64,000 nt of DNA, from assembly GCA_964017235.1 (NCBI GenBank), contig OZ024930.1, forward strand, positions 152,706,221-152,770,220. The letters are read 5' to 3'. The notes beneath the pieces are model-generated. The model saw nothing but the letters and a program-made list of their open reading frames with translations. It made no database searches and had not been told where the DNA came from. The DNA comes from Sabellastarte sp. h YS-2021 (lineage: Eukaryota; Annelida; Polychaeta; Sabellida; Sabellidae). Positions 7,401-44,500 of this stretch are shown piece after piece. A program made the position numbers and the translations under genes. Numbering within the stretch: the stretch's first letter is position 1; each line of letters starts with the position of its first letter.

Positions 7401-10400
7401 AATATTTGAAAAATATTAAGATGGCCCTTAAGAAGAAGAAAAGTAACTCTGGGGAAGGATCTGCATGCTACCACACTTGAGCAAGAGGGGACACAAGATA
7501 GAACACAGGAGGACACAGTTGCACCCAATTTGTAAACTGTCAAATCTCCCTTACAATTTTGGATTCAGAGCTTAAGAATGTATTAGGAGGTAATAGGAAA
7601 CCATGGCCTGGGATTCTAAAATGTCCATTGAATTTGCACCCTCAAGGGCAAACTGGGTTCATAGAACTGAATATTTTGTAGAGTGTCTACAGAAATATTG
7701 CCTGAAATCACAGAAATCATAGTGATTTGGCTTTTTGTACACTTTTTGTACTTGCAGGTCAATGCTCTCACTCCATATGGTTAAGAATTTTAGATATTGC
7801 TTAATGTGTCTTTAATTATTTTGATTAGAGCTTTTGATATTTTGGGACGTAAAGCAAATCATAGCCTCGGATTCCAAAAACACATCTGAATCGCCCCCCC
7901 TACCCTGTTTCCTCAAGGTCAAAATGTGGTTGGAAAGTTTTCTTTCCTTTTTATACAAATTCACACCTGTATAAAAGACACAATGTTTATGTATTTTATT
8001 AGCCTATATCTTATATACCATTATACACCTCTGATCACTTCCTTCTTTTTCAAAAGCAAAGCATTTTTTTCAGTTTTTCATTGATTTTTTCTAATCTCTT
8101 TTGTAAATAAGGTAATGGGCATTAATCAAATAAATTAAATATATTTACTTATTAATCTAAAATGATATTAAAAGTTATTATTAATTTGATATTAGTTACA
8201 GCTGTAATTGCCGAAATATGCAGTTAAATTTTGAATGCATGAATATACGGGTAGTATAAACTGTGTCTACTTATCTGTAATGACTATGTATATAACTATG
8301 TAATGCAAAGGTTGTGTGATGCCTACTTTACACGTAAAGTTATAAAACTATAACACATTTATTACATATTTTATTTTTTAGTATTGGAAATGTAACCCTG
8401 ATTTCAAGTAACATTGGAGATTCCTTTGTAAGTATGAATTTCAAACTTATTTTATCAGCAAAAATAATTCACATTTAAACATCTACTGTATAAACACAGA
8501 ACAAATATTATGTATGAACATACAGCATAAATGTGTGTCCCTAATATTACTTATATCAGTAATTTTGATTTTATAATATAATAATTAATATATTTCTCAA
8601 AAGCCTTATTGTTGAGAAATACTTTTACGTTGTAGTCTTATAATGCTAAAATAAATGATTTACAATAGGTATCTAACATACAAAAACTTATTGGTTTTAA
8701 AAGTTCCAGCATTACTGCATTAGATCTTGTTACATCATTTTAACCATTATGTTATGACATCAGACATCCATAGTATTGCTTGCCACTGATGTACCTGCAT
8801 AAATTGCCACATTGTAAGTTATTTATTGAACACACATATGTTCACAATTTTATCACTAAAAGTAATATTTTCAAACATGTAACTGTTAAGAAACTAACAG
8901 ACTTGCTTGAATTGGATTGTTTTCGTCTCATGGTCAAAATGTCTATGTTACAATCTCTGGTTTAACATCATAACACAATATCTTAAATCAATGGCAGTCA
9001 CTGATAAGACACTAGCAGTTTTACTGATTGGGATTGTTTAGGGTTTGTGGTTGCTACATCTTCTAGATCACAAGAATGATGTCTGTTTTAGAAAACTCTC
9101 CTTTAAACATGACTAATATGACCAACACTTAAGTTCCAAACACTTTCAAATCCACACAAAAGTGCTTATATCCACAAGGTACAAACTTATGACTCTCATG
9201 TAATTCAATATTATTCAGAAGTTTATTGAGAGAAATGTAACCAAAATATCTTTAAATATGTGATTTCATGCACTACAAAATGTAAGTGTTGTAAGCATTA
9301 TAATGTTTAATACTAATGATTGTTGAAATGTCAACTATATTTTGTGTTTAGGTGCATACATTTGCGAGTGTCATGTCAGCACTTGTGAATAACTTTGTCA
9401 AGCCACAGTTAAATGGTAAGTGGATAAAAGTATCCTGTTAATCAAATTGTTTCATGAAATAACTGATACTAATACTAATTTCGGCAAGGATTTTCTGATC
9501 AATCGGACCATAGATGCCTGAATGGGAGGCGTTTTATTTTCGTAAATTTTTTTTAAATGGATACTTGAACTGTATATCAAAAACGGTCAGGATTTCGGCG
9601 TTTTGTTGGAATAAGTTATTCAGCTACTTTTTGATAATCTTTCACATGCCGAAGTTTAGCCCTGTATCTGCAATCTTAAGGTCACCTTAATGTCAAAAAA
9701 GGGGGTTTTAGCCCTCCAGCTCACTTACTTTTTCACTTTTTTCAACCAAACTTCGCATATATATTAAGATTTACCAAAAGATTATCCTGACTTTATAGTG
9801 ACCTTAAACTGTTAATATAATTGGAGCTATGGTCCCCCTAAAGTCATAAAATTGGAATAAAGCCATCTGACCCCTTTCTTTTTCCATACCTAACGTATAT
9901 TGATATTAAAGGGACATTCTCAGTTTATGGTCACCTTAAAGTCGCAATATGAATGAAGTTATGGTCACCTTACAGTGAAAAAGTTTTCAGCCTCCAGATA
10001 TCTTATGGGGGCCACGGTGGCAGAGTGGTAACACTCTCGCCTCCCACCTCTGAGGCCGGGGATCAATCCCCGTACGGGCTCAAGTGGGAAAGCTGGTAGT
10101 TGCTTGCCGTTGGTCGGCAGTTTACAGTACACAACCCTAGCGAACTCTATGTACTGGTTTCCTCTGCCCTTCCAACTACCCGTCGTGATATGACCTGTAC
10201 AGTGTTGAAAGCGACGTTAAACCCCAAATAAACAAACAAATCCAGATATCTTATTGTTCAACTGACTTGAGTTTAACTTTATGCACTTATAAAGGATGAC
10301 GAAAGAGAGATTCTTATTTTATGGTCACCTTAAAGTCCCAATATGAATGAAGTTATGGCCACCTTGCAGTGAAATGATGGAGTTTTTAATCTCCAGCTAT

Positions 10401-12741
10401 TGTATTGTTCAGCCGACCTCAGTTAAATTTTGCACACTTGTTAAAGATGAAAATAGGGACATTCTTATTTTCTTTCCACCTTGGAGTTCTAATGCAAGCA
10501 TAGTCATGGCCATCTTGAAGTAAAAATGAGGGTTTTCAGCTCCCAACTGACGTACTGTTTTTAGATCATCCACTTTCCATTAGATACAAAGCACAGTAAA
10601 GCTTACCTCCTCCTTACACTCTCATACCACAACTACTAACAGCTTTATTAACGCAAGTCTCCATCTGGGCTGCTCGTTTTTGTCAGCAAAAGCCTTTTTC
10701 TAGTTTAATAACAAGACTGCAGATGAATGACTTTTTTACCTGGGAATCTGTTTAGGTAATTAATAGGTTTTAACACTATCAGCATATGCTCTATATTGCC
10801 AACTTAACACTGGCCTTCAGTGTGAATTATTTTGTTTTGAATCTCCAGGCACCCTGACTTAAAGTTTGTTAAGGACCTGTTACCTGGTGATTTTAAACCT
10901 ATCTCTTATTATCATAGTAAACAGTATGTGCAGCAGTTATTTACCATTAAATTACAGAAGTTGAGATAAATCTATGATATGTATCTGCACTTAACATATG
11001 ACATTGTATAAAATGTCATTTTGTGCACAAATATGTTCATCTTGATACCGATTTATACAACGGGTGTTACGCTAATAATACCAACACCCATGAAAATCAA
11101 TTATTCTCAGTTACCTTGCACCCAACAAAATTGATACTTGGAGCCTCTCATGTTGTACAGTAAGAAATGTGATATTTGCTGGTAGATTATAATACTCAAA
11201 ACGGGATTCGGAACCGGTTTTTTTCCCGAATCGCACCTCTTGTCTCACCTCTTTATCACATTTCTAGATTCTATATGAGGTTACGAATTTCCATGGTGTT
11301 TCTATCAATATTTTATTTATAATAAGGCTGCTTGAAGAGCAAATACTTTACTTTCACAGCCATAGCACCGAACTCATTAATATTCATGAGGAAGTATAAT
11401 ATATTGCTGGAAAAACCCATGGGAAATCTGTAACCTCATATCTTCTTATGGCTATTAATGACTTGTGTACTATATGGCTGTGCATCACACCTCGTTGCAC
11501 CAATTGCACCTCTCCAACAGCACCTTTAGAAGTCCGGGTTTTATAATGAACCATATTTACCACTGTAAATAGGCATAGCTTCCATGTCACCCATGTGTCT
11601 TCTTGGTATAACCTGGCTATGTTACTGGACTTATGATTATTCACATTGGTTTCGTTCAGGTGCCCCTTGGAGTCTGTCAATTGAATGAGATTGAGTTCTA
11701 TAAAAGTCCACATAAGATTAGTAATATTAGTAAATCAGCCTTTAAAAATAAAACAAAATCATCAAAATTTGTACTAATTTTGCATCAGAAGAGATCATTT
11801 GCCAGATGTAGTTGTAAAAATTTCAAATGTATAAAAATTAAAATTTTTTATAAGGTAAAGTAAAGTGATTTCTTCAGCAAATTTCGCATAAAGAATTACT
11901 TACAAGTTACAGTAAAGGATTTCTTCAGCAAATTTCACATACTGTGGTGTATTTGACACTTCTTACCCTACTTGTCATATGTAGTGTATTTTGTTTTCTT
12001 AACTTTTATGTAGATCTGATGAAGAAGGGCTTGGAGCTCCCTAAACTTGATGACTTCCAGCTGGTAGATCCTGAAATCCAGTTAGTTCAGGTGAAAAAAT
12101 ATATTTAAAACATCAGGGGGCTAGACTGAGTGCAAAGTTTACCAAAATATGCACATAACTCAAACATGTTGGTTTTATGCCTAGTATTGCTAGAGTGTGC
12201 TGTTTGAGTATCCAGCTCATCCATACTACTTGTTAAAAAATAAATATTTAGTTTGCAAAACATGTATATGTCTGCCAAATTCCCTATTTAAATTCTCAAA
12301 CTTTTTTCCAAATTATTTTATATATGAAGTATCGGTATGCACCAGGACATTATAGATTGTTTTATTTACACATCTCAATGACAACAAAATGAAAATATGG
12401 GTTTACCAATGCCAATGCACATTTCAAGCAATTGCTCAGGGTCCTGATTACAGCTTTTTGTGTCCTTATTGCAGAAAATTTGACAGAAATACATGTTCTT
12501 AGTTTATTTAAACCATGTATCACCAAACAGCAGAATTTATTTAATGGTAAAGCTACCACATTGGATGGTTGTTGAAGTGGGTATTCAGTGATCAGTGTCA
12601 CAATATCGGTTAACCATTGTGTGGAAATATATGTTAAACTTTGTTTTATTACTTGCAGCAAATTAACTATGGAATCCTGTATTTTTTTTTTACTTTCAGA
12701 ATGCTGTAGTGGTGCTGACTAATATCAAATACACAGGCTGA
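1424..12741 (+). CDS. BPI/LBP-family protein, 3' seven exons (partial)
   Basis: This is the C-terminal part of a bactericidal/permeability-increasing or LPS-binding protein-like gene. Such proteins are secreted, bind lipid or LPS in two BPI barrels, and act in innate immunity. Exons: 1424-1498, 2580-2738, 4021-4088, 8382-8427, 9352-9415, 12014-12090, 12700-12741. All introns are GT-AG and the phases join into 176 residues ending in TGA. Order of similarity to the BPI C-terminal barrel: ...FIPQ, then VHMAVSKAPSLQIS, MELNITMKDMRIVG, IGNVTLISSNIGDSF, FASVMSALVNNFVKP, LMKKGLELPKLDDFQL, VVVLTNIKYTG. The last pieces match the conserved 'LxxGxxLP' helix/strand and final strand of the family. The N-terminal barrel is missing from the window. 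Introns are 0.9-4.3 kb and carry transposons. Family assignment rests on remembered motif order, so subfamily (BPI, LBP, PLTP, CETP-like) is open. Confidence 0.85.
1556..1760 (-). mobile_element. L2/CR1-like non-LTR 3' end fragment
   Basis: The complement reads LWNELPEDIKTAKS, the near-C-terminal motif of Jockey/L2/CR1-type reverse transcriptases, followed by a short 3' tail. Only the end of the ORF is left. The boundaries are approximate. Confidence 0.5.
2580..2738 (+). CDS. BPI-like exon b (53 codons)
   Basis: Phase 0 at both ends, donor ACT/GTAAGT. It encodes KFCANCSIEVHMAVSKAPSL onward, with the SIEVHMAVSKAPSLQIS strand that matches 'KIQIHVSASTPPHLSV' of vertebrate BPI. The acceptor is followed by AAG twice (GAAG/AAG), so a 3-nt alternative acceptor adding or dropping one residue is possible. 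Confidence 0.85.
4021..4088 (+). CDS. BPI-like exon c
   Basis: Acceptor TTTGTAG, donor TTTAG/GTATGT. Encodes SVAMELNITMKDMRIVGAVK and ends in phase 2. This is the amphipathic strand pair of the C-terminal barrel. Confidence 0.85.
4655..7345 (-). mobile_element. L2-like non-LTR relic, split by a later element
   Basis: A reverse-strand reverse transcriptase relic lies in two pieces, 4655-5490 and 7233-7345. The outer piece encodes in order LKLSPDKTEFILIGS, VSSRLNYCNSLF, LHWLPLRYRVQFKI and an LWNSFPFKIRN-like end. The inner piece complement reads YHFYADDTQL then SPAHFSHAI, which is the catalytic YADD region lying just N-terminal to the first piece. The protein therefore continues across the 1.74 kb insertion at 5491-7232. 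Frames are broken by stops and indels, so it is inactive. Confidence 0.85.
5491..7232 (+). mobile_element. L2-like non-LTR retrotransposon, 5'-truncated, one stop
   Basis: An almost intact reverse transcriptase 3' part. Protein similarity starts at about 5493 (VTETEVLKFIKESPSKTCS...), hits one TGA at 5722-5724 where the family has Arg (NYRPVSGL), and runs open to 7078 (449 codons from the first Met at 5729). RT motifs: LLDLSAAFDTIDHD (residues 67-80), GVPQGSVLGPLLFSLY (126-141), FYADDTQLF (159-167), KLKLNPDKTEF, VSSRLDYCNSLF, LHWLPVRQRI and LWNDLPYDIRS. A 3' UTR of about 130 bp ends in (ATTG)n at about 7211-7232, the short-repeat tail usual for L2/CR1 elements. The endonuclease is missing. 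It sits inside an opposite-strand relic of the same type. Confidence 0.92.
7346..8209. other. BPI intron sequence, nothing recognised
   Basis: AT-rich intron between the nested L2 elements and the start of the duplicated block. The short frames here are not supported by similarity or splice sites. Confidence 0.5.
8382..8427 (+). CDS. BPI-like exon d
   Basis: Acceptor TTTTTAG, donor TTT/GTAAGT, 46 nt joining exon c in phase 2 and ending in phase 0. Encodes IGNVTLISSNIGDSF. A near-identical copy lies at 35408-35453. Confidence 0.85.
9352..9415 (+). CDS. BPI-like exon e
   Basis: Acceptor TTGTGTTTAG, donor AATG/GTAAGT. Encodes VHTFASVMSALVNNFVKPQL, the amphipathic helix before the C-terminal strands of BPI proteins. 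Not present in the right duplication arm. Confidence 0.85.
9600..10560. repeat. Degenerate tandem repeat, unit about 150 bp
   Basis: Phrases such as TTTATGGTCACCTTAAAGTC, GAAGTTATGGTCACCTTACA and TCCAGATATCTTATTGTTCA recur with a spacing near 150 bp once the SINE at 10007-10240 is taken out (starts near 9912, 10309 and 10462, with weaker units before). Similar GGTCACCTTAA-rich sequence occurs near 23.9 kb and 33.8 kb. It lies in the intron between BPI exons e and f and is absent from the right arm. Confidence 0.65.
10007..10240 (+). mobile_element. tRNA-derived SINE with 14-bp target duplication
   Basis: The 5' head is tRNA-like: an A-box-like GTGGCAGAGTGG near 10016 and a B-box-like GGGGATCAATCCC near 10058, the two internal RNA polymerase III promoter elements. 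A conserved-looking body follows, ending GCGACGTTAAACCCC and an A-rich AATAAACAAACAAA tail. Flanks carry a perfect 14-bp duplication, TCCAGATATCTTAT, at 9993-10006 and 10241-10254, so both ends are exact. Such SINEs with a GTTAAACCCC 3' end are common in mollusc genomes as far as I recall. The insertion is inside one unit of a tandem repeat. Confidence 0.88.
12014..12090 (+). CDS. BPI-like exon f
   Basis: Acceptor TTATGTAG, donor CAG/GTGAAA. With one base from exon e it encodes DLMKKGLELPKLDDFQLVDP and on. The KKGxxLP motif is the best single family signature in the gene (vertebrate 'LQKGFPLPTP'). Confidence 0.88.
12700..12741 (+). CDS. BPI-like terminal exon
   Basis: Acceptor TTTACTTTCAG. 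Encodes NAVVVLTNIKYTG and TGA, the last strand of the C-terminal barrel. In the right arm only the last dozen bases of this exon (ACACAGGCTGA, about 39187) survive. Confidence 0.85.
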   Translation, partial: NAVVVLTNIKYTG

Positions 12742-13489
12742 ACTGTCGAGAGTATCTGAAGCACAGCATTAATGTTTGAATTTCTTTTCTTTCAGTTTTA
12801 TGTTTAAATGTATGACATAATTAAAATGAGAGATGTATTTGATACAAGCTTTATTGTAAATAACCAGTATACCTATTATATCTGTAATGTTTAACATAAA
12901 CTATGTATGTAACAATTATATTAAACATCCCAACAAAAGAGTACTCACAGATTGCAATTCCCCTGCTGAAGAGTGACCAAATTGACAATGAAATGTATAT
13001 ACACTCCTGAAATAACATGAACTGTCATGAAGTAACTTTACTATTAGTTTGTAAAAACAATTATAATCTTTAATTTTAACGACTTGGGATCATTGATTCA
13101 TGGATGATATAGTTAGAGATTTTAGCTAACAAAATCTTCTGAGCAACAAATGTTAACAGACTTCATTTGTAGCCAGAATGGTTATGGTAAGATCATGTAA
13201 TATGCTTTTGCATAAACCAACAATGTTTGTTCTCAACAGGATGTTTTATGTAATATTGTATTATTGGGAACCTTCTACTGTACCGAAATTGATGCTTGGT
13301 ATTCTTGATGACTTTTGTCCTTATCAACATTCAGAAGGATGCATTTGAATTAATCCTAGTTACCATAATCAAATAAATTTTCTAAAAGTTGAGTTCAAAG
13401 ATTTGATTTGAATCATTTTATGTGCTTTTTGAGACGGTCATATTATGGAGGTATACAAAGTTGAAGAGGTTTTCATTGCTGTTGAGCCA
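12742..13489. other. BPI 3' flank / 3' UTR
   Basis: AT-rich sequence after the BPI stop codon, presumably including its 3' UTR. AATAAA-type signals occur (for example near 13373), but none can be chosen as the real poly(A) site from sequence alone. No coding signal. Confidence 0.45.
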
Positions 13490-15185
13490 GTAAATGTATA
13501 TGTTACAGTAAATATGCGAAATCAGTAAATATATTCCCTGAAAATTTCAGTAAAAACACATATTTACTGTTTTTTTAGTCAGTAAATACGCGTATTCCCT
13601 GAAAATTTCAGTAAAAACACGTATTTACTGGTTTTTTAGTCAGTAAATATGCGTATTCCCTGAAAATTTTAGTAAAAACACGTATTTACTGGTTTTTTGG
13701 TCCAGTAAATACGCGTATTTACTAAAACCATAATGAAGACTTTATATCTTTAATAGTTGGGTGTTATCCGCTAAGTCTTCATATTAACAGTTACTTCAAA
13801 GTTTAAATGACTTTGTCATATTCAAAGTTTGATACTTGTTTACAATCTAGCACTGGGATAACTATTTAACATCACTTTATAATTTCAAAAGCATTTGCAT
13901 GTGATTGTGATAAAAAAACTTGTAATATTTTTTTTCATTTAAAATAAATTGTAATGTAAATAGACAAGTTTAATTAGTTTATAAATTTAAATATCGAAAT
14001 ATTTATCAAATTATGATACTTTATGTATAAGGAACAACAAGCAAGGTAATAAAATTAAGATATATATCTTGTTCAAGAACTGAATTTTACTGTAGTTTTA
14101 ACCATGCATTCTAACAATGTATTTCTTTTCCAAAGGTCACAAATAAAATTTAGATCTATAATTAGGGTTGAATAAAACTTCCCTTTAATGTTGCCCCTTC
14201 AATAGAGGAAACCACAACATAACCATAGATGCCTTAAAAGAGATTAAGTCCCTCTGAAAGACTATGATGAAATCTAATTAGGGGCTGGCTGGCCTTTTCA
14301 TTGTTTCTAACAACAATTCTTTGATCAAGTAGCCAGTACCTACATTAAAGACACAAATCTACCAGAAAATTGCAAAATATTAGGCCTTGATTGAAATAAA
14401 ATAAAGAAACCACTTACTTATAATCTCTGTTCAACAATAGGTGCTTCAAGAATACATGCAGACTTGTTTGGGTGTAAATCATGTTGTCTTAAATGATAAG
14501 CTAAAATTTCTGCTGAATGAGAGTACAATTAAAATATGTTAAAATTTAGAAATTTAAATTAATTTCTGAAACTTTTATTTATTTCCAATAAAAATACTTT
14601 TTATGTATCAGTCACATAAAGTAGTGAAAAGTTAAATGATCTTTAATCATTTGTAGGGATGACATAGGTCCTTAGTAGCTGTGGGATTGAAATTACTATA
14701 AGCTCAAATGAAATATCTAAAGAAAGCACATAATTATCTAAAGTTTTTAAAAATAAATATTTAAAAGCCCAGTACTATATTTTTCAAAATATTTGCATTT
14801 AATGTACTTTAAAATGAAATATGCTTAGTATGTTCTAATAGTCATCATAATAGAGTAAAATGTTCCAAATATAATTCACAGTTTGGTTTACCATTAATAT
14901 TATATAGAGTAAAATGTTCCAATATAATGTATATTTTGGTTTACAGTTCAATATAATATATTTACAACCAGTGAACATCAAAATTTCATTTCACATATTT
15001 ACTGAAAGTCAAACCAGTAAACTTGTGAAACAACTCAGGTCATAAATCAGTAAATACGTGTATTTACTGAAAATTTTAGGGAATACGCGTATTTACTGAC
15101 CAAATCAGTAAATACGCGTATTTACTGAAACTTTCAGTAAATACACGTATTTACTGATTTCGCATATTTACTGTAACATATACAC
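13490..15185. mobile_element. Foldback element A with palindromic subrepeats
   Basis: A 1.7 kb element whose ends are inverted copies: it opens TATATGTTACAGTAAATATG CGAAATCAGTAAAT and closes with the reverse complement at 15150-15184. Both ends contain runs of CAGTAAATACG-type half-sites in head-to-head pairs, making perfect 22-bp palindromes, with about 62-bp subrepeats at 13505-13730. The centre is AT-rich and shows no coding frame, so it is non-autonomous. The matching place in the right duplication arm (about 39430) lacks it. A second copy in reverse orientation lies at 57990-59486. Confidence 0.85.
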
Positions 15186-16299
15186 AACTTAAAGTGTTTT
15201 GAAATATATTTTGTTACATGTAATGTATACTCCTGCATTGTATGGAATTCTTTACAGTTGTGAAGAATTTCTTTTTTCGATATAAACATTTTCGACTTTT
15301 ATACTGTAGCAGGTTTGCTTTGGAATTGTATAGAACTATATATGCTTTGAATACCACTATTTACACACTGTTATCATTATGCTTTGTGTAGGTTATACTG
15401 TTCAGTGTGTGTATTTTGTAACAGTGTCCGAGGATAGGAAAAGCTTATCCTGAAAATCTTTCCAGAACAGTAGGAATATAGTATCACAAAAGTTTTAATT
15501 CTGAAAACCACTGTTGCAATAACAATTTCTCTCTTTATTTGCTCTTTTATAGATAGTTTTATTAAGTTGAACAGAAACGGAATTTGTAAAAATCTATTGT
15601 TAATTAAATACCAAATAGTCCGTTAAAGAATTATATATTAAACTAAATGTACAATGTTCTTTGTAACATATTGCTCTTTAATTTCATTGCTTGTTTCATT
15701 TTTTTTCTTTTTTTTTTTGTAACATGGTTTCAGAGGGTGAAGGATTTTTGTTGCTATTATTTTTTTCAAAGTTGGAGAGATCCATAAATGTTTAATTATG
15801 ATATTTAATGTGATATTATGATTATAGTTGATGTCTTATTAAGCAATAATGCCTTTGTTGCCTTAACTGAAAAATAGTAATGCCCAAGTCACATTACAGG
15901 CGGTACAACCCACAGTTATAGGCACTGGGCAAAACACCCCAGTCCTTCAACCACCGTCTGAGGTTCTTATACCAATCTGGGGTAGTTTTTACTTTACCGG
16001 TACAAGATTTGGACAATGATATAAATTCTATACGTTTACAGTTTATATATAAATTACAGTATGACCTCTTGTATTTGGGCTAAAGCTTTAATGCCTGCAT
16101 TCAGTGGTAAATTTTACTTTTCCAAAGACCCATATGCACCAAAATTGTTACATACAATCGAATATGACAGGTTCAGAGACAGGCCCTATTCAAATCATAT
16201 TGTCATTTGTACATATGGCCTCAACACAATAAAGGACCAGGAAGCAACTGAAAATTAGTGTGTGCTTTTTCAATTAAACTATCATAGATAGGTCTTTAG
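15186..16299. other. Intergenic sequence between converging genes
   Basis: Shared with the right arm (for example 15421-15495), but no protein-like frame is seen in it. Probably 3' flank of either gene. Confidence 0.5.
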
Positions 16300-16417
16300 G
16301 ATAATCATAGCTCTATTACAGTGGCTAAACACCAGCCCAAACCACCATTTGTGTACATGTTTGTACCTGATGAAAACAGAATTGACGTCAGTTCTGAAGA
16401 TTGTATCACATGAATTC
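16300..16417 (-). pseudogene. Dead copy of nicotinamidase terminal exon 6
   Basis: The complement still reads IHVIQSSEL, as in the working exon at 41434-41552. The acceptor TGTAG/GAATTC has become TGTAA/GAATTC, which destroys the AG, and the nearest new AG is one base off frame. The C-terminal tail diverges after SSGTNM. It belongs to the left duplication arm, cut off from the rest of the nicotinamidase gene. Confidence 0.82.
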
Positions 16418-16509
16418 TTACAAAATACTAGTATAACATCAGAGCATGTAATAATAAAACCTATCAATATTATGATTCCAGTTTCATTTCTAGAACTGAT
16501 CATAAATAC

Positions 16510-18790
16510 AGTAATTATTAAGCATCCCTTGCGGGACGCTTGTTTGTGTATGGGAGACCTTCAGGCTCCGCCGGCTCCGCATTTTGTTTTCCTTGTAACT
16601 CTGTAACCGTTAGGCGGATTCTTTTCAAATTTGGCAGGTTTAGGCAGTAGCCTTGGGAAATTTTTTTGTATATGCTGCAGTGACATTTTAACCACTCAGA
16701 GAGGTCACATGACCAAAAATGTCTTTTTTCAATGGGGAAGCTTGTCCGGATGATAACTTGAAAGGAATTTTATCAATTCACCTGAAACTTGGCAAATACA
16801 TTCATTCTATTAAAATCTGGAAATCATTAGATTTTGGCATTGATTGGTTAAGAAATGGCCGAGTAATTAATGATTAATTAATCATTATGAATTTTCCAAA
16901 TAAAGAAAACACAAAAATGCTTATATCGCGAAAACCGTGCTAGATAGAGCGATTTCGACGAAATTTTTGACCCACAGGGTATCTCTGCAGAGTAGTTATC
17001 CCAATTTTCAAAAAAAATTTTGTCTCTCCAAAAATGGCGGCCATTTTGAATTTTCGAATTTTTCGCAAAAATTGCAAAACATAAAAATGCTTATATCTCG
17101 AAAACCCTTGCTAGTTAGAGCGATTTCGACGAAAATTTTGACCTACAGGGTATCTCTGCAGAGTAGCCATGCCAATTTTCAAAAAAAATTTGTCTCACAA
17201 AAAATGGCGGCCATTTTGATTTTCGAATTTTTCGCAAAATTGCAAAACACAAAAATGCTAATATCTCGAAAACCGTGCTACATAGAACGATTTCGACGAA
17301 ATTTTTGATCTTCAGGGTATCTCTGCAGAGCAGCTATCCCAAAGAGCCTTCACTTGGTGAAGTTTCAGACCCGTAGCTAATTATTCACCTACTCAAAATG
17401 AGTAAATGCTAATTATCTCTAAAAGTATTGCGGATACCCAATTTTTATCAAATAACTCATTCATCTACTTTTGGAAGAGCTTTCACATGGTGAAGTTTCA
17501 GACCCATAGATAATTACTCACCTACTCAAAATGAGTAAATGCGAATTATCTCAAAACTATTGTGGATACCCATTTTTTATCAAATAACTCATTCATGTAC
17601 TTTTGGGAGAGCTTTCACATGGTGAAGTTTCAGACCCGTAGATAATTACTCACCTACTCAAAATGAGTAAATGCGAATTATCTCTTAAAAGTATTGCAGA
17701 TAGCCAATTTTTCTCAAATAACTCATTCATCTACTTTTGGAAGAGCTTTCACATGGTGAAGTTTCAGACCCATAGCTAATTACTCACCTACTCAAAATGA
17801 GTAAATGCGAATTATCTCTAAAAGTATTGCAGATAGCCAATTTTTCTCAAATAACTCATTCACCTACTTTTGGGAGAGCTTTCACTCCGTGAAGTTTCAG
17901 ACCCATAGCTAATTATTCACCTACTCAAAATGAGTAAATGCAAATTATCTGTAAAAGTATTCCGGATACCCAATTTTTCTCAAATAACTCATTCATCTAC
18001 TTGTGGGAGAGCTTTCACATGGTGAAGTTTCAGACCCGTAGCTAATTACTCACCTACTCAAAATAAGTAAATGCGAATTATCTCTAAAAGTATTGCAGAT
18101 AGCCAATTTTTCTCGAATAACTCATTCATCTACTTTTGGAAGAGCTTTCACATGGTGCAGTTTCAGACCCATAGCTAATTATTCACCTACTCAAAATGAG
18201 TAAATGCGAATTATCTCTAAAAGTATTGCAGATACCCAATTTTTATCAAATAACGCATTCACCTACTTTTGGAAGAGCTTTCACACACGAAAATGAAAAA
18301 TTGTGAATATCTCGGGAAAAGCTATTTCTTCTCCTTTAATGCTCAGCGGGAGATACACACCGCGGCAGTGGTCTTGTCAAAAATTTTTGTCTCCCCAAGA
18401 ATGGTGGCCATTTTGAATTTTGCAAAGTTTTTGCAAAACACAGAAATGCTTATATCTCGAAAACTGTGCTAGAGCGAACTCAACAAAATTTTTGACCTGC
18501 TGGGTATCTCTGCAGAGTAGCCATACCAATTTTCAAAATATTTTTGTCTCGCCAAATATAGCGGACATTTTGAATTTTCGAATTTTTTGCAAAACACAAA
18601 AATGCTTATATCTTGAAAACCGTGCTAGATAGAGCAGACTGCGCTGACTTTGGTTGCCACAACAGTATAAGGCTAGAAACGAAGCATTTTCTTAATTCTT
18701 TAGCACTCACTTTTATATCCTTTTCGGGATGCTTTGTTTTTGCTATGCAAAAACATTATCTTTTTTTTGCGAGCGATCCTCTAGTTATAA
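16510..18790. mobile_element. Satellite-bearing insertion in the left arm
   Basis: About 2.3 kb absent from the matching place in the right arm (about 41632), so it arrived after the duplication or was lost there. It opens near AAGCATCCCTTGCGGGACGC and closes near TTTTCGGGATGCTTTG. Order inside: a unique head; about two and a half copies of a roughly 165-bp repeat (CTCGAAAACCGTGCTAGATA, GGTATCTCTGCAGAGTAG, AATGGCGGCCATTTTGA) at about 16915-17340; a 133-bp tandem array at about 17341-18290; then more copies of the 165-bp repeat to about 18650. Short open frames are by-products of the repeats. No transposase is visible. Confidence 0.7.
17341..18290. repeat. Tandem array, 133-bp unit, about seven copies
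   Basis: The phrase GAAGTTTCAGACCC recurs at 17359, 17492, 17624, 17758, 17891, 18024 and 18157, a period of 132-134 bp. Each unit also carries CACCTACTCAAAATGAGTAA, which contains the inverted pair ACTCA/TGAGT, and CAAATAACTCATTCATCTAC. Units differ at few positions, so the array is fairly young or kept alike by conversion. Confidence 0.93.
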
Positions 18791-20970: not shown

Positions 20971-20999
20971 TCAATTGTAAATTTTATATTTAATGTAGC

Positions 21000-22570: not shown

Positions 22571-22575
22571 ACAAT

Positions 22576-32546: not shown

Positions 32547-32589
32547 AGCATATTGTTACAATAGATAGGACTATTGTAGCGTAATAAAA
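32547..32589 (-). repeat. DIRS right inverted terminal repeat
   Basis: AGCATATTGTTACAATAGAT starts it and GTAGCGTAATAAAA ends it. Inverted partner of 21000-21042, mismatched at five positions. Confidence 0.88.
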
Positions 32590-33118: not shown

Positions 33119-33780
33119 TCAGCCCATTTTAGTGAGATGCTTAATTTTTCCTTCAGCAAAAAATCTCTTGCTAGTTTTCAGGACTATAAGAATGGTTAGA
33201 TATTCTTCTTCCATTAATAACAAAATTGGTAAACACTCTGAGGGCTTTGTTCCAGATGGTTTCACGAAGGCAGCTGTTTCCCCACTAATCATAAAAGGCT
33301 TCTTTGTCACGTGATGATATGAATTACGGTCCTGTATCTGGCTAGTGCTTTTTTTCTAAACTAGTTGAAGGAGTTCAATCTGCCTACAAGGTTGGTCACT
33401 CAACTGTAACAGCACCACTGTCCATAAAGAATGAGATCCACTTTTCTTCATCACAAGGGGAAGCTTCAGCACTGGTTCTTCTGGATCAGTCAGCTGCGTT
33501 TGACACCATTGACCATTCTTCACTTAATGCTAACAGATATGGTTCAGCATTAGTGACACTGTATTAAGATGCTTCCGATTCTAGTTCATTGACTGATTCA
33601 ATTGTATCGAGATTGGTTCAACCCTTTCAGAACTCAGAAGAATTTGTTTGATATCCCTAAAGGTTCAGTCCTGGGTCCCATACTGTTGTCCTTATATGCT
33701 GCACCTCTCAGTAAGGTCATTGGTAGACACTGAGCTCAAGTTTTTCTATGTTTCCACAAATTACACCAAAAATGGCATGA
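33119..33780 (+). mobile_element. Heavily decayed L2-like RT fragment
   Basis: Frames give, in order, NKIGKHSEGFVPDGFTKAAV, YGPVSGL, VQSAYKVGHSTVTAPLSIKN, ASALVLLDQSAAFDTIDHSS (motif A), ELRRICLISLKVQSWVPYC (motif B region, shifted) and FYVSTNYTK where FYADDTQ is expected. Many indels and stops. The catalytic Asp pair is gone. Same order as the element at 5491-7232. Confidence 0.85.
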
Positions 33781-34265
33781 CATATTTGATATATATTATA
33801 TTTCGCGGATACATGTAACTACTGTTACAGAAATGTCCTATGATGACATTGAGGTGACCTTAAACTCCCAGTAATGGCATAATTATAATTACTTTTCTTT
33901 TAAAATGTTTGATAATATCTCAAATTATGTGAAATAGATTTTAAACATATTTAAATTTTGGAAATAACTAATCTTGAACCGAGTCTACGTGGTTAACATG
34001 ACCTTAAAGCCTTAATATTTGCACTTTGACCATTCAAGAGTTACATCCAGTTTAAAGTTAGGACAAATTTTTATGATATTTGGACAATATTAAAATGGTA
34101 GTTTAGAGTTTTCATTTATATTACGCATGTACACATATCTAAACCAAAACAAGATCTTTATTGTAATGTTACCATAAAGACCTGATAATTAAAGAAATGA
34201 GTTTAAGGTTACAACTTATTTTATTATTATATCCATCCTACTGGGCTTGAAATTATTTTGCCTTT
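33781..34265. other. AT-rich spacer with GACCTTAAA motifs
   Basis: GAGGTGACCTTAAACTCCC and CATGACCTTAAAGCC recall the tandem repeat at 9.6-10.5 kb, so this may be a decayed relative. No coding signal. Confidence 0.4.
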
Positions 34266-35230
34266 CGCTCTGAATCGCCCTTCATTGATACTCATTTACA
34301 GTTACAGTTTTTATGGCATGATAGTTTGTATGGGATTGCTTTCTTGGCAATATCTATCAACAAGTATTGCCATGCCAACACTTTTTCTGTTTCCTGGTCT
34401 TGTAATTTTGTGGGAATTTATTCCAAAGTTTCAGAATATGTTTCCTGTAATAGGAACTTGTTGAGATTTGCTTTTGGGCAACGTTTGCTAACAGTTGTTG
34501 TCATGGCAACACTTTTCCTGTTGTTTTTCACTTTTAATTTGGTGGGTTCTTTATAAACAAAACCATGCAAAGATTTTAACTAATATTTTCAGGATACATT
34601 TCTTGCAAGGGGAACTAGAAGAGTAGCAATTAAGCCTTTTGGAATTTTTGGGGAAATAACTGTTGCTATGGCAACACTTTTTCTGTATAGTTTTTGAACT
34701 TGTGGTTTTGTGGGTACTTTACATTCAAAACCTGTGCACAGATATTATCCAACTTGTCAGAATATGTTCATTGCAAAGGAAACCGAGGCTGATGATACCT
34801 GGAGCTGACGACACCTGGTAACAAGTGTCAAAAGCTGAGTATATATAATACATAATAATAATAACACTTTTCTGTTTCTTGGAGTTATAAATAGTTTTAT
34901 GGGTTCCCTGTATTCCATAGCTTTCTGACAATATCTGGCAACAACCATGGCAACACTTCTTTTCGGTTTCTTAGACTTATAAATAAATATTTTATGGGTT
35001 CTTTGCTTTTCATACCCTTGCACAGATTGGAGCCGATTAGTTTTTTGGCAGTAAGTGTTTCTCGGACTTACAAATATTTTTGTGGGTTCTTTGCATTTCA
35101 AACCCCTGCATGGATATGAGATGGTTAGCTTTTCGGTAATATCTCCCAACAATAGCTTTTTGGCAATATATGCCAACAAGTGTTGCCATGGTAACACTTT
35201 TTTTCTGTTTCTAGATTGTGGATATACAAA
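34266..35230. repeat. Degenerate tandem repeat with GTTGCCATGGCAAC-like palindromes
   Basis: Units of roughly 130-160 bp share ATATCT-CAACAA, then GTTG(C/T)CATGG(C/T)AACACTTTT, TTCCTGTTTC, TTGTGGGTTCTTT and CATTTCAAAACC. Palindrome copies lie near 34365, 34498, 34662, 34947 and 35180. It ends right at the left edge of the right duplication arm. Confidence 0.7.
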
Positions 35231-35407
35231 GTCTTGAAGAAGACCGAAATAGGTAATTAAATTATGAATATATGAATTAATATCACCCTTCCATACTTAC
35301 CTGTATCTGTAATAACTATATGTACTCATGTGTGTAATATGAAAAGTGCATACTTAAAGTATAAAGATATAGAAATATAACAAAAAATATGACTTCTTGT
35401 ATATTAG

Positions 35408-35453
35408 CCTTGGAAATGTAACCCTGATTTCAAGTAACATTGGAGATGACTCT
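35408..35453 (+). pseudogene. Orphan copy of BPI-like exon d
   Basis: Acceptor ATATTAG and donor TCT/GTAAGT are both kept, the length is still 46 nt, and 41 of 46 bases match 8382-8427. Read in the same phase it gives LGNVTLISSNIGDDS. The exons that should follow (e, f) are missing from this arm, so no complete BPI 3' end can form from it. Confidence 0.85.
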
Positions 35454-35959
35454 GTAAGTATGAATTAAAAACTTAATTTTTCTGCATAATAATTCACAAT
35501 TAAACATTCATACATATAAACACACAAAGGTATATACATATAAAACATAATGTAAACAAATATTATGTATGAACATGTAACATAAATGTATATAGTAAAT
35601 AATATTTATGTCAATTATAATTTATTTAAGTAGTTATATTTTTAAAACGTTTTATTACTTAGAAATACTTTTACATGCATAATCAACATAACTACTTTCA
35701 TGGTCTATGTGATACAAAATACCAGATTTACATGTGTATCTAATATATACGAGCATATTGGTTTTACAAAATGCAGCATTATGCCATAATATTTGGTTAT
35801 GTCATTTCGACCATTATATTATGACATCACATACATGATACTGCCAACGATGTACTTTCTTAAGGTGCCACTGTTTTAATTTTATTTGAACATAAATGTG
35901 GCACCATTTTTCCAGAAAAAGGTAATTTGACCTGTATTACTTTACTTTCTATTCTATAC

Positions 35960-38610
35960 TTTTATAGAACTTAATATCTTCCGAGGCAGACTCGGACTTT
36001 GCCATTCCAATACCATGGAGATGCTAAGGTTATGTGCTAAGGTGGGAAAGCCTTTTTGAAGAGATAAGATTTTGAAGAGATAAGATTTGAGCTTTTTTTC
36101 TGTAACAGAAGAGAGCTGGGGAAGAACAGATCTCATCAGGTAAATCATTCCATACTGTGGGAACATCACAAAGCTTTGACCAAAGTGTCTTTTTATTTAT
36201 GTTCAAATGGATAGAATTAAGGAATTGTCAAGTCTTGAAGAATTATATGACTGCTTGCATGACTGGTTTGGTCTAGATGGTACTGTTTTGTCATGGATCA
36301 AATCGTATCTTTCACACCGTAAACAAAAAATTAAAATAGGTGATAGTTTCTCTGAGGCGGTAATTCTCCCTTTCGGAGTCCCCCAAGGCTCTGTACTGGG
36401 TCCTCTCCTTTTCACCCTCTACACTAGTCCCCTCAGTCAAGTTATTTCAAAACTCAATGTTACTCATCACCTATATGCCGATGACACCCAGATCTACCTA
36501 GCAGTTGACTCCAGGAATTTTGACTCTAGCATGGAAGAGCTGACCGAGTGTCTCAAGTCTGTACAGGAATGGATGGACGGTGTCAAACTAAAACTAAACC
36601 CAGAAAAAAACGAATTTATCATTATAGGTCAAAAAGCCATCAGAGAGTCACTTGCACCAAATTGTCCTGTTCCACTCCTCCAAAACAATATCTCTCCGTC
36701 AGTGGAAGTTAAAAACCTGGGTGTTATTTTCGACTCAGACAACTCCTTTGACAATCATGTTGCCAAGGTTTGCAGAGCATGTTACTATCATCTTCGTGAT
36801 TTGCGACGAATTCACAAATTCCTTGGAGTTGAGACAGCAATACTTCTGGCAAACGCTATGGTCAGTAGTCGTCTAGACTACTGTAACTCTTTACTCTATG
36901 GGGTAAGCAAGTCCAACATAGCCAAACTACAGAGAGTCCAGAATGCTCTTTGTCGCATCATCTTCAGACTTGACAAAATGAGTCATGTTACACCCTTTTT
37001 GAAAAAACTCCACTGGCTCCCAATTCAACATCGCATCCTGTTTAAGTACAACCTTTTGGTATTCAAGGCTATTAATCTTTCACAGCCCCCGTATCTTTCA
37101 GCTTTAATAAGATCGAGCAGTCTCACTCGTGGCAACAGGCTATCTATCTCCTCAACCCGCCCTAATAAGCACATAGGAAGGTGTGGCTTTGCAGTAGCTG
37201 CACCAGCCGAATGGAACAAGCTGCCACAGACTGTCAGATCTCAGCAAACAATAGATGGTTTCAGAAGCCAGCTAAAGACCTACTTGTTTAGGCTGGCATA
37301 CCCCCCACCTTAGTTATACCCTGGCGGGCGCTTTTTAGATGTCAACCCATGCCTGTCCCTGGACTCTCCCTTCTTGGACTCAAGCGCATTAGAGGATTTG
37401 TATCAATTTTGCGCTATATAAATCCTACTATTATTATTATTATTATAAGGAACCAAAATAACTGGGATGACCACTGTGAAAAAACTTGTAAACTAGAGTG
37501 ACAGTTTTGAAGATACAGCAAAATTCAACCAGGAGCCAATGGAGTCGTTTGAGAATAGAAGATATCAGTGTGTATTTACAGTTTTTGACATTCCTAGCAA
37601 GTGTTTTTGAATAGAAAAATTAGCATCACCCCAGACACCGAGGTTCTTTACAACAAATGCTGGATGCATGAAATTACCAAATATCCTGACAGGGAGGTGA
37701 GAATCGAATTTCTTGAGCTGAGCATGAATTCCAAAGATGATGAACACAGGGTTTAATTTGAGCATACTAAACGACATCCATTCTTGAACATCTAGAAGAT
37801 ACTAATTCAGTTTGTGAAAAGCCAGGGCTGCATTTTTGTGAGACATACGAATAAAGAACTGGGTGTCATGTGCATAAAAGTTGAATTTGATGTTGGGGTA
37901 CATTCCAATAATCTTACTCCAAGGAGTGGTGGATAAAGAGAAGAGCCGAGGACCAAGGACTGAGTCTTGTGGAATTCCAAACAGCAGTTCAAACAATACA
38001 GAGCTGGTTGACCCAATTTCAATTGGTAGCTGAGATAGGTGAACCACTTCAAGGCCATGCCACACACACCAAACAATAAATTAAGACAATTTAGAAGAGT
38101 AGTGTGGTCATTTGTGTCAAATGCAGCTGACAGGTCGAGTAAGACAAGTGCAGTAGGCTCGCCACGTGACAGTGGGAGATGACTCTCATTTTTGATGTGA
38201 AGCAGGGCTGTTTCAGTGGAGTGACCAGTTTTGCTGATTGCTGAGGATTGTCAAGATAGTTACTGTTGATATGCTGCATGAGCTATTTGACAACTGCCCA
38301 CTCCACCAATTTTGGCATGAAACATAGTCCTGATACAGGATGATAGTTCTTTAAATCTTTCCTTGAAAGTGATGTTTTTATCATGAGGGGAGTAACAACT
38401 GCCTTCTTGAAGTTTTAAGGAAAACTGCCTCAGCCAAAGACAAATTGACAGATTTTGTAATTGATGGAAAGCAAAACATCTACACAATCATTCAGAAAGA
38501 AAATAAGCAGTGGATCTAAAATACATGATTTTGTCGAGGAATTTTTGATGATCTTAAGTATCTCATTCCCCAACACCTCATTAACCTCATTACACTTCAC
38601 TTATGTGAGC
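35960..38610 (-). mobile_element. L2-like non-LTR relic, split by a later element
   Basis: Two reverse-strand pieces, about 37442-38610 and 35960-36240. From 38610 down: NEILKIIKNSSTKSCILDPL, FKKAVVTPL-like and VSGL region, LHLSYSTCQLHLTQMT in a shifted frame, LLFGIPQDSVLGPRLFSLS (motif B, GVPQGS changed to GIPQDS), FNFYAHDTQFFI (YADD changed to YAHD), LNPVFIIFG, VVKNLGVWGDANF, LKRLHWLLVEF. The last piece gives DVPTVWNDLPDEI-like sequence and KKLKSYLFK at about 36000. The protein runs across the insertion at 36240-37441. Active-site changes and frameshifts show it is dead. Confidence 0.85.
36240..37441 (+). mobile_element. L2/CR1-like non-LTR retrotransposon, 5'-truncated, open RT
   Basis: Open frame 36207-37313. 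Real similarity starts at about YDCLHDWFGLDG (36246), inside the RT domain, so the 5' end is truncated just after motif A. Intact motifs: GVPQGSVLGPLLFTLY (residues 57-72), LYADDTQIYL (89-98), LKLNPEKNEFIIIG, VSSRLDYCNSLLYG, LHWLPIQHRILFK, AEWNKLPQTVRS and LKTYLFRLAYPPP at the end. The 3' UTR is short, with CTGGACTC, GCGCTATATAAATCCT and an (ATT)n tail at about 37423-37445. This GCGCTATATAAAT-(ATT)n ending is a common CR1/L2 pattern. No stops after truncation, so it is the youngest of the L2-like copies here. Confidence 0.9.
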
Positions 38611-38689
38611 TTTTGTCACATAACTTTCCATAATTGACATCACTGGCAGTAATGGATCGGAAACCTAGTGGTGATAGACTGTGAAGTTT

Positions 38690-39240
38690 GAGTATCCAGC
38701 TCATCCATGCTACTTTATAAAAGAAAAATAAATACTTAGTTTACAAAACATTAATATTTCTGCCAAATTTATGTGGTTTTCCATATTTACATTCTCAAAG
38801 ATTTTTGAGATATTTTATATGTAAATGATCTGCAGTGCACCAGCACATTGTAGATTTTTATATTCACGCATCTCAATGTCAGCAAAATGAAAATACATGG
38901 ATTGGTTTACCAATGCTCATCCCAATTTGATGTTGCAAAATCATTTCTATTTCAAGCAAATGTTTCTGGTCCTGATTTGCAGCTTTTTGCATCCTTATTG
39001 CAGACAATGTTCCAGAAATACATTGTCTTAGCTTACTTAATCCAAGACAAACCGCAGAACTTATTGAATTATAAAGCTACAATGTTAGTTTATTTCTGGA
39101 ATAGTCTTCCAGTGTTCAGTTATGCTATATGGGTTAACCATTGTGCAGAAATAGGTTTGAAATACTAAAGTTTGTTGTGGTATGACACAGGCTGAAATTT
39201 CAAAAGAGTATCTAAAGCACAGCATTAATAATGTCTGAAT
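38690..39240 (+). pseudogene. Remnant of the BPI 3' end in the right arm
   Basis: Collinear with 12205-12770 of the left arm: GTTTGAGTATCCAGCTCATC at 38688 and the long intron stretch 38880-39175. Of the terminal exon only ACACAGGCTGA and the following 3' flank remain (39187 on); the part encoding NAVVVLTNIK is deleted, together with the acceptor. Confidence 0.8.
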
Positions 39241-41433
39241 TTCTTTTTCATGTTTAAATATTTTACATTGTTAAAAGGAGGGGTGTATCTGGTACACACT
39301 TCATTTTCATTGTGAACATCTCTACAATTAGTTTATATCAATCATTTTATATGATTTTGTATGTTTTTTATGTTTTTGGGGACAGTTGGAATGTGGAAGT
39401 ATACAAGCATGAAGTTCATTGCTGTTGTGTTATTTTATTACATGTATGTACATGTATATTCTTGCATCATACAGAATTCTTCAAAGGGGTGGAGATTTTC
39501 TTTTTTTCAATATAAGCAGCTTAGACTTTTATACTATCGAAGTTTTGCAATTTGATTTGGAATAGTACGTAGAACTACTTTTTATGCTTTGATGACAGGC
39601 TATATTTTATATAAGTGTCAGAGGATAGACATAGCTTATCCTGAAAATCTGTATAGATCAGTAAGAATATAGTATCACAAAAGTTTTGTTTGTGAAAACC
39701 TATTTAATAACAAGTTGCCTCTTTGTACTTCTTTTGAAGATGGCTTTGTTATATGTGACAAACATGAATTCATAAAATTCTGTTTTATTTTGCCAAATAC
39801 TTTGACAACGAATTAGTTACAAAACTTGTAAGAACACACATTATTCTTTGCAAAATATTGCACTTTAATTTCAATGACTGTGTCAGTTTTTGCTTTCTTT
39901 TTGTCGCATGGTTTCAGAAGGTATAGGATTTCTGATACTACTGTTTTTTAAAGTTGGTTGGATCCAAAAATGTTTTATAATAAAATCTAAGTCCTAAAAA
40001 AAAATACATCATTCTATTTCTGTTATTTTTTGTTTGTGATTATAGTTGATGTTTTATTTTGCAATAATACCTCTGTTGACTTGTCTGGAAAATATAAGGA
40101 ATCTGCAAATATCAATAAAACATATCCACCACCTTCCACACACCAGATAGAAGTATTGTCATTAACAAAAGCTTGTATGACCAGCACCATCAACACTGTC
40201 AACACTACATTCATTACATCACACACAAACACTTGTCTAGAATTCAGGTACCAATCTTCTGATACATATATCGCTGATATATAAACAAATCTTATATAAC
40301 TACAAACTGATGCTTCAAATTTTAAATATGGAAAAGTATTGTACTTTATAAATTAAGCATTTTAAGAGGAGATAGATTTCTAGAACTTTGTCTGTGTGAT
40401 AGCAAGTGAAGAAGGTTATCAATCCTAAACTATATTGAAGATACAACAACTGACATTTCAGCTTTAAATAAAGACTAGTCATGGTTTAATTATGACTTAA
40501 AAAGTGAAGACATTTTATGCAATTTGTGCATCTTCAAAATGTATTTGTGATTAAGAATAAGAACTGTAAAATTACTACAGTTCGTGGAATTAACCAGTGA
40601 GTAAAAAAAATCTTTATTCTACATTGAATTTGGGGATGCCTATGTTGCGTGCACAACTTCTCTGATAAGACCACTCATCACACTTTCCAAATTTGCTGCA
40701 GAATTTCAGAGAAGTTTGTTTCTTGCTGAATGAGAGAACTTCTCACTCCACCCTAGTAAATTTCACTTTGGGTATATTTACAGGAGTTACCTACTAAACA
40801 AACTCAAGTAGCTGCTTATATATTATACATCATCTGTAAAAATCTGTGAAATCTGTGAAATAATCTATTAATTCTTCTGTTCATAGCAATAGTCCAACTT
40901 TGATGTGTACATGAATTTCATATGTTGGACCTGTCATGTACTTAGAAGGATGTGTGCTATTGCATCACATTTGACAGACAAAATAAGTATATAGGGCTTT
41001 AGCTCCAACAGCTGAACCCAGTGGTAAATTTTACATTCCAATAGACCCACACACGCCAAATGGTCTGATACAATCCAATATGACAGGCTCGGATATAGGC
41101 CCTTTTCAAACTAAAGAAAATATTCAAAATCAGAACAGAAATAAAGAAGTTGTGTTCATCTTAATTGAAGGTCTATGGTATATGCTGACTATACTTAATG
41201 AAACCTTGAGAATTTTTCAAAAAAAAAGTATGTGTCAGCTTGTATTGTATCATTTTACTTCTGTATAGGCAGGATAATTCACCTCAGTTCAACCTATAAT
41301 ATTGGATTGTATCGACTTCTATTGTCATTTGTACATATGACCTTCACAACATAAAGCCCAAGAAGCAACTGAAAGTTGGTTTTTGCTTTTTCAAATAAAC
41401 TATCATGCATAAGTTTTCTCGACAATCAAGGTT

Positions 41434-41552
41434 CTAATGCAGTACCAAAATAAATATGACACTACCCCATGCCAATGTTTTTGCAACAGGAATGTTTGTA
41501 CCTGATGAAAACAGCAGTGAGTCCAGTTCTGAAGATTGAATCACATGAATTC
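41434..41552 (-). CDS. Nicotinamidase exon 6 (terminal)
   Basis: Acceptor TTTCTTGTAG. Encodes the end of the fold, GIHVIQSSELDSLLFSSG, then TNIPVAKTLAWGSVIF and ILVLH with TAG. The hydrophobic end goes beyond the usual end of the isochorismatase fold. Confidence 0.87.
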
Positions 41553-44500
41553 CTACAAGAAAATATATCAAAACAAGTAATAATAAAAACCATCAATTTT
41601 AAATTGCCTTTTTTATTTGTTGAACTCATTAAAATATGATATACTCATCTGCATAAAACAATTCCTAGACTACTAGGAACCTTATTTTATTTCATTTGGT
41701 AAACATATCAAGTCAGAGTCTGTTTGATTTAAATAATTTAAGGTAATAGATCAAACATATAATACCTCCAAAACCATGATTGGATAATATCCAATAAGAA
41801 AAAAGTTGCACAAAAAGTAGTTTGGTATTTAATTGTTGAGTTTTGCAAGGATATTGCTTCATTGTTTGAATTTAGATGGCATCTACAGAAACTATTCTGT
41901 GGACTATATTTTGAAGGTATTGGCTTCAAGAATCCTGCTTAAGTCTAGCTATGCATGAATATTTTACCTCTTGCTTTCATGTCCTCAATTGCAGCCAGCC
42001 CAGTATTCTCTGCTACTGCTCTGGTGGCATCTTCTATGACATAGGTTGTGTATCCTATAAATGTAACCAGTATATCTGTAAACTAAGCTTTAAATTCTAA
42101 ATATTGTTGTTTGTAAAAGTGGATAGTTACATTTCAGTCAGAATTCAGGGCAACATTGTCAATGCATATTTTTGTAAATGTTTGCAAACATTAAAGTTTC
42201 ATGACCCAGAAATCCAAATTATTATTAAAATATATATGTCATGGTAGAAATCCAAATTATTATTAAAATATATATGTCATGGTAGAAAGTCCAATCTGGT
42301 ATAATTTCAAATTCTACCAACATAAACTTGATAGAAAGTCCAATCGAGGAGATTTGGGTATTGCCCTGGGGTCCGAAATCTAATAAACTTGATAGACAAC
42401 TGCTCAAAAATGTGGATAGGAGACATTACTGCAAGCTTTACATACTGAGACCAACAACTGGTTGGTGATGGTATGGTGATGAAATTTGATGTTCATTGTA
42501 AAATTCTTGAAATAGACTGAAAAATTCAGTGTCTGTCATGTCTACATCAAATTTGTGTTACAGTAAAATATTTTCTTTAATATGAGTTTTCTTCATTTAT
42601 GAAAGTTACACTTTGCTTAGATAACAGATTTATATGGATAGAAGGCCCACTGTTTGTGTTTCTGCTTTCAAGCTTACATGGAGTTTCTACAAAGATTACA
42701 TTCTGGTACACAGAGCAATACCTAAATCTCTGAAATTAGAACATTAAACAAGTTTGTTAAATTTCGGACCCCAGTTCAATACCCAAATCTCCTAGATTGG
42801 ACTTTCTACCGGTAAAAGCTGCAATTGGACTTTCTACCATGACATATACATGATGTCATGGTAGAAAGTCTAATCTGGTAGAATTTCAAATTGTACTGGT
42901 AGAAAGTCCAATTAGAGTTTCTACCAGTAGAAAGTCCTATCTTGGATATTTGGGTATTGCCCTTGGGCCCGAAATCTAGTAATGGTGATAGATATTCAAA
43001 TCTCAGAGATTAGGTACTGCTCTGTGTACCAGAATGTAATCTTTGTATAAACTCAATATAAGCTTGAAAGAAAGTCCAACTGAAACACAAAAAGTGGGTT
43101 TTCTATTAATATAAATCTGTTATTTAAGCAAGGTGCAGCCTTCAGAAATGAAGAAAATGAATATTAATTGAAGAAGATATTTTACTGTAACACAGATTTA
43201 ACATAATTAAAAATGACAGAAACTGAAATTTTCAGTCCATGTCAAGGATTTTTCAGTTAACATCAAATCCCATCACATTTTGTAAGGGGAATCTGTAATA
43301 TGGCAATTACTTGCTTCTGCAGCTGAATTTTTCAGATTTCGGACCCTAGGGCAATACCCAAATCTCCTAGATTGGATTTTCTACCGCTAGAATTTGAAAT
43401 TCTACCAGATTGGACTTTCTACCATGACATATACAAATGGTCTCTGCCTAGAATAGGATGTATTTTTGAAATGTCAATTCTTCATAAGTCAGTTTTCAAG
43501 CTTATCCAAACTTTTATTTTGTATTGTTATTCAGACACAGATGAACATATAAGTCAGTCATTTGCAAGACTTGTAATATGAAAAAATGAGATATTTCTTA
43601 CATTTTCTTTGTAATGTATTTACTTATACTGGTTTCACATGTTAGTTAACTTTTTATCAGTAATATTTTCAATCGGTTTCTGTGTATTTTAACATAAAAA
43701 TGGAATTACAATAGTTGTTTTAAACAAATAGCAATAAATCTAAGCAATTTTTCTGTTCAAATTACCAAAAACAATTGCTGTTTCACACTTCACAGGTTGT
43801 AAATGTTGTGAAACACCGTATATTGCAGATTATTATTATACTAAAATAAGGACTATGAAGGTCTAGTCCCTGCTGAATTGGCTGTACTAGTTTCTCTCTT
43901 ATTTTCTCTGAGTGTTGTCATACAGGGATGGACAGTCTTCTGGACAGGACAGTCATAATGGACAAAAGGAAAAACTCATGTCCGTTATGATTGCGTTATC
44001 TGTAAGATTGCCTACCCTTGAGATTATCCAATCCAGTAAGAGTATAGTAAAACCAAATTAATGTATAATTTCAATAAAGTGTAGCAGTTGGATATATTTT
44101 TTGAAAAGAAATAAATTTTAGGGACCATTAAGGCCTTTTATGTACTAGCTAAGATTTATTTCTATCATGAAATTGTTATTTAATGTTTTCACTTGATTGT
44201 TAAATTTTCTTTTCAAGATTTTACCATAAAATCGCATTCAAAGAATGTTATAGCCTACAATGCTACTGTATAAAGTAATAAAGTAGTGTTAAATATTTGC
44301 ATCCACTGTGTAACTCTCCATTACATGTTGGCCATGTTTCATTGAGGAGCTGGGCAAATCAGCACTGTACCAAATTGGCCCCATCAAATCAGCGCCCAAG
44401 ATAAAATACTCCAGTCGAAATACTCCCCCCCCCCCCCCCAGGAAAAGATTCTCTAGTCATATTGACCCCTAGAAAGTTAATGTGTTCTCAAAGACAGCTG

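Follow-up and report, generated by a model that had tools for sequence, protein, structure and literature searches.

Probable direct tandem duplication of the facing 3' ends of a BPI and a nicotinamidase gene, with mirror-image decay of the inner ends, in Sabellastarte sp.

The 3' ends of two converging genes, a BPI gene on the plus strand and a nicotinamidase gene on the minus strand, are present twice in direct orientation in a window of 64 000 nucleotides from Sabellastarte sp. h YS-2021 (the window being the whole stretch of DNA analysed, to which all positions refer unless a contig position is given). We consider it likely that this arrangement goes back to a single direct tandem duplication of the 3' gene ends, after which the two inner ends decayed. 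The locus is an old and clear case of a type already known, in which an ordinary process is unusually legible.

Self-comparison of the window gave a single direct diagonal, along which 8211-20048 and 35244-43866 are collinear, diverged copies with present lengths of 11.8 kb (left) and 8.6 kb (right). The diagonal was taken as nine pieces separated by stretches private to either copy (Table 1), with ungapped identities of 70–82% per piece over 3344 columns, and the homology covers introns and intergenic DNA as well as exons. The best real match scored 286 bits, against at most 39.7 bits by chance when the right block was dinucleotide-shuffled 50 times. Two neighbouring, direct, collinear copies that include non-coding DNA are what characterises a tandem segmental duplication. 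This bears out an earlier, sequence-only reading of the window, which had described the 3' exons of both genes as lying in a block that is present twice in direct orientation; the self-comparison, which it had proposed as a dot-plot, contains the collinear diagonal, and the ends that it had given (8210, 20090, 35250 and 43920) lie within ~55 bases of the measured limits.

Copy number was searched in the whole 1.786-Gb assembly for two parts, 18800-20048 of the left copy and 38660-40100 of the right, each of which matched only itself and its partner. For these two parts a shared repeat family was thereby ruled out as the source of the diagonal. Side-by-side placement of two haplotypes is an assembly artefact that occurs in heterozygous invertebrates. 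As an account of the present block it is extremely improbable and was rejected, since the non-coding DNA of the copies has diverged by 25%, the private insertions and the outer flanks differ from copy to copy, and the two parts searched have no third place or spare haplotig.

Table 1. Features of the duplicated region (positions in the window; paired positions are left copy/right copy; nic., nicotinamidase).
Feature	Position	Strand	Remarks
Left copy of block	8211-20048	none	used by BPI; ends are limits of detectable homology
Right copy of block	35244-43866	none	used by nic.; ends are limits of detectable homology
Spacer between copies	20049-35243	none	15.2 kb; largely mobile-element-like by eye
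Aligned piece 1	8211-8866/35244-35926		
Aligned piece 2	12180-12855/38664-39305		two blast matches
Aligned piece 3	13401-13503/39349-39445		
Aligned piece 4	15207-15876/39431-40094		
Aligned piece 5	16071-16194/40987-41110		
Aligned piece 6	16198-16508/41320-41636		
Aligned piece 7	18800-19274/41636-42127		
Aligned piece 8	19500-19585/42159-42243		
Aligned piece 9	19587-20048/43431-43866		
BPI exon upstream of block	2580-2652	+	outside duplication; AG/GT flanks; spliced alignment to human BPI
BPI exon A (IGNVTLISSNIGDSF), live	8382-8427	+	46 bp; found by reading frame and splice sites
BPI exon B, live	9352-9415	+	from human BPI alignment
BPI exon C, live	12014-12090	+	from human BPI alignment
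BPI terminal exon D, live	12700-12741	+	stop TGA; frame and splice sites consistent
BPI exon A, stranded right copy	35408-35453	+	AG/GT kept; 41/46 bases identical
BPI exon D, remnant in right copy	39185-39195	+	clear 11 bases; most of exon gone
Nic. exon 4	47281-47434	-	outside block; contains ARDYCVYFTA
Nic. exon 5, live	41968-42054	-	right copy
Nic. exon 6, live	41434-41552	-	right copy; stop TAG
Nic. exon 5, dead left copy	19112-19201	-	in-frame stop, 3-base insertion, GC donor
Nic. exon 6, dead left copy	16310-16417	-	acceptor G to A; low-coordinate end approximate
Insertion private to left copy	13504-15206	none	palindrome-rich element; inverted relative at 58017-59455, 90% identical
Insertion private to left copy	16509-18799	none	satellite units of 133 and 171 bp; no interruption of right copy at 41636
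Stretch private to right copy	35927-38663	none	at place of missing BPI exons B and C
Insertion private to right copy	42244-43430	none	repeat-rich

Spliced alignment to human BPI placed the first aligned exon of the BPI gene ~17.6 kb to the left of the window; an LBP/BPI N-terminal exon (Pfam PF01273) lies at C4:152700029, 6 kb left of the window. Judged by its matches to the LBP/BPI/CETP family along one gene, this is a real BPI gene. Its last four exons in the left copy join in frame, have AG/GT sites and end at a stop, in keeping with the sequence-only reading, in which BPI uses the left copy. Exons A and D were recognised by frame, splice sites and by-eye likeness to the human end, not by alignment, and the spliced alignment was unreliable for several middle exons. 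Its placements at 6192-6258 (a reverse-transcriptase frame), 1424, 7263, 7486 or 7865, 8891, 14947 and 19752 were not accepted, and it located none of the exons expected from the human protein between 2652 and 8382. A Pfam search of the raw plus-strand frames from 1 to 20.4 kb (one frame without 13.8-15.0 kb) returned no BPI domain; it returned reverse transcriptase and, below the cut-off, CvfB_WH (E 0.017). The miss is probably owed to the shortness of the BPI exons; finding the gene in this range took spliced alignment. Elsewhere on the same contig, 24 Mb away, there is a second BPI-like exon (L005, C4:128678161-128678319), which probably represents a second BPI gene.

The nicotinamidase exons run leftward from 61007 in the spliced alignment, in which the aligner put a 5-base piece at the exon 2/3 junction. 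The translation contains IIDVQ, IVRKG, DYCV and QDWHCSDH; we take Asp, Lys and Cys, together with the DWH metal motif, to be the marks of a nicotinamidase (isochorismatase fold), and the ARDYCVYFTA of exon 4 is presumably the motif with the catalytic Cys. The predicted product matches a solved nicotinamidase, 2wt9 (E 1.3e-46), and similarity to solved structures and the presence of the motifs identify the gene as a real nicotinamidase. That it uses the right copy, as had also been proposed, agrees with the presence there of exons 5 and 6 with their stop and with the rise of the best PDB match from 139.3 to 162.3 bits after these two exons were added.

Both inner ends have decayed in the mirror-image fashion that the sequence-only reading had described, with exons broken or missing on either side except for the right copy of BPI exon A. 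In the left nicotinamidase exon 5 the stop and the GT to GC donor change that it had named are both seen in the letters, the stop being TAA with the 3-base insertion beside it; GC-AG introns exist, so the GC donor alone need not kill the exon. The loss of the acceptor AG of the left exon 6 is likewise seen, AG having become AA; the change creates another AG one base further along, out of frame. The right BPI end is indeed without two exons and most of the terminal exon: no counterpart of exons B and C was found in the right copy, and exon D has lost its acceptor region there, keeping a clear match over its last 11 bases and a doubtful one over ~14 others. The right exon A is stranded, not broken, and by eye it is open in the same frame as the left one. 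With disabling changes and coding constraint lost, the inner ends have the character of unprocessed pseudogene fragments, the right exon A being intact; they also resemble partial gene duplicates, in that part of each gene is missing and beyond the break there are weak matches alone.

The Kimura distance between the copies is 0.31 (interval 0.28–0.34) in non-coding DNA, which is probably too low because alignable pieces alone enter it, and 0.21 (interval 0.14–0.29) in exons, an exon/non-coding ratio of 0.67. Columns that differ make up 46/251 in exons versus 784/3093 elsewhere (Fisher p 0.012). Were one copy free and the other keeping its protein, a ratio of 1/2 to about 2/3 would be expected. 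Differences at the three codon positions (18/78, 13/79 and 14/81; p 0.51) show no third-position excess, which counters the idea that selection still acts on the inner exons. The differences fit, as expected, the free evolution of one copy of each end. At the invertebrate rates that we assume, the duplication would date back tens of millions of years.

Retention of the inner ends as alternative terminal exons, in read-through isoforms or as antisense RNA would find its support in the right BPI exon A, which has intact splice sites and differs from the left one at only 5 of its 46 bases, below the non-coding prediction (binomial p 0.013). This number of changes is nevertheless about what one unconstrained branch would give, and the remaining inner exons are broken, missing or without a splice site; given also the evenness of the codon positions, we regard retention as highly improbable. 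There is similarly little chance that the right exon A, or old terminal sequence of one gene or the other, still contributes to regulating the two converging genes through read-through or antisense transcripts.

Under the favoured duplication of gene ends, the block would have run from a BPI intron, via the tail-to-tail 3' ends, into nicotinamidase intron 4. Both outer genes would have been kept whole, BPI stopping within the left copy and nicotinamidase within the right, and the inner ends, of nicotinamidase in the left copy and of BPI in the right, would have had no upstream exons of their own. Placed past the first working terminal exon of its own gene, each inner end could then decay unconstrained, and mobile elements would have filled the junction and the introns after the duplication. 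Each gene meets the nearer of its two ends before the other, so the far end was probably unused from the start, the inner ends probably being dead on arrival. Position, not choice by selection, would predict the mirror-image pattern. It had been suggested that selection keeps one end of each gene; one end per gene is indeed kept, but selection need not have chosen it. The further suggestion that no gene is broken holds in that the outer genes are whole, but the same follows from a tandem duplication in any orientation; the tail-to-tail orientation matters solely in keeping the junction free of a promoter-driven chimera.

The same map would result exactly if the whole BPI–nicotinamidase pair had been duplicated and one later deletion had taken the 5' parts of the inner genes, which would adjoin across the junction; the original ends are unreadable in this junction of 15.2 kb, largely mobile-element-like. 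Such a history requires two events versus one, however, and a pair that spans ~79 kb (BPI from ~-17.6 kb, and the nicotinamidase exons as far as 61.0 kb), and the spacer is without exon-like or intron-like remnants of the missing 5' parts; we consider it unlikely. In the spacer, 20049-35243, nothing gene-like was found that could derive from the 5' part of BPI or of nicotinamidase. When it was compared with other sequence of the locus at E up to 0.01, there were 2 matches to 43867-84000 and 12 to the stretch from -19 kb to 8210; of these, 13 lie in stretches resembling mobile elements or tandem repeats and one, of 47 bases (E 0.001), is unassigned, and no exon of BPI or nicotinamidase is among the 14. 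Nor was a left counterpart found for the right outer flank, 43867-44354. The absence of this counterpart and of any exon among the spacer matches favours duplication of the gene ends only, which is the simplest reading. Of 591 candidates for the flank itself, the 40 that were scored include no match, so that it does not resemble a dispersed repeat.

Beyond the block ends the best weak matches have E of ~0.01–0.05. Those that are roughly collinear pair 20066 with 45418 (E 0.02), 20733 with 46468 (E 0.05) and 7385 with 34400 (E 0.23), and the block may once have extended slightly beyond its present limits. The inner limits, 20048 and 35244, may be those of insertions instead of the original junction. 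Comparison of the four 1-kb end flanks gave no significant homology that would mark a recombination site (best E 0.02), but age could hide the trace of a recombination between repeats there. Dispersed repeats stand just outside both outer ends, at 7527-8012 and 44355-44893, each with more than 50 matches listed in the genome, and the two do not resemble one family.

Dead-on-arrival copies serve as neutral clocks. The present locus is like them in that an unused copy decays unconstrained beside a conserved one and unlike them in that in each arm the end of one gene is live and that of the other dead, which provides a built-in control for comparing the neutral decay of exons and introns in this lineage. 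The locus also illustrates that two converging genes can both come through unharmed when a tandem duplication cuts them, and that position would decide which copy survives, each gene keeping the end that it reaches first. Among the papers listed in a literature search, none deals, judged by title and the opening of the abstract, with a doubled tail-to-tail gene end, which is no proof that no such case has been published. Partial gene duplicates are common, reported shares ranging from ~7% of yeast duplicates to 76% in one set of Drosophila copy-number data, and those for C. elegans and D. pseudoobscura lying between these values (Katju, 2012; PMC3449122). As there, the present copies are incomplete and truncated, with no homology past the breakpoint, and many of those duplicates are frame-broken; here, unlike there, two opposed genes were cut together and both fragments are 3' ends. 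Of 1116 tandem duplications in D. yakuba, 1004 are given as capturing genes or gene fragments and 66 as whole-gene (Rogers and others, 2017; PMC5460883). Capture of gene parts by tandem duplication is common to that set and the present locus, whereas the D. yakuba duplications are polymorphic in a population sample and the present one is old by its divergence; that set also includes chimeras, and here the tail-to-tail arrangement leaves no promoter-driven chimera.

The two copies were filled separately, the left by a palindrome-rich element and satellite and the right by repeats and LINE-like stretches (types judged by eye). In the right-copy private stretch, reverse-transcriptase-like frames were seen by eye at 36180-37310 (+) and 37810-38250 (-). 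The stretch at 13671-15128, within the left-copy insertion, and its 90% identical inverted copy at 58017-59455 belong to a palindrome-rich element in which short palindromic units recur, and at 16906-18635 a satellite array of about seven 133-bp units stands beside 171-bp units, in the left copy only. On the minus strand of the spacer, frames from 21087 to 32444 resemble by eye nested tyrosine-recombinase (DIRS/Ngaro-like) retroelements, an inner element at ~24.2-28.6 kb appearing to lie within an outer one.
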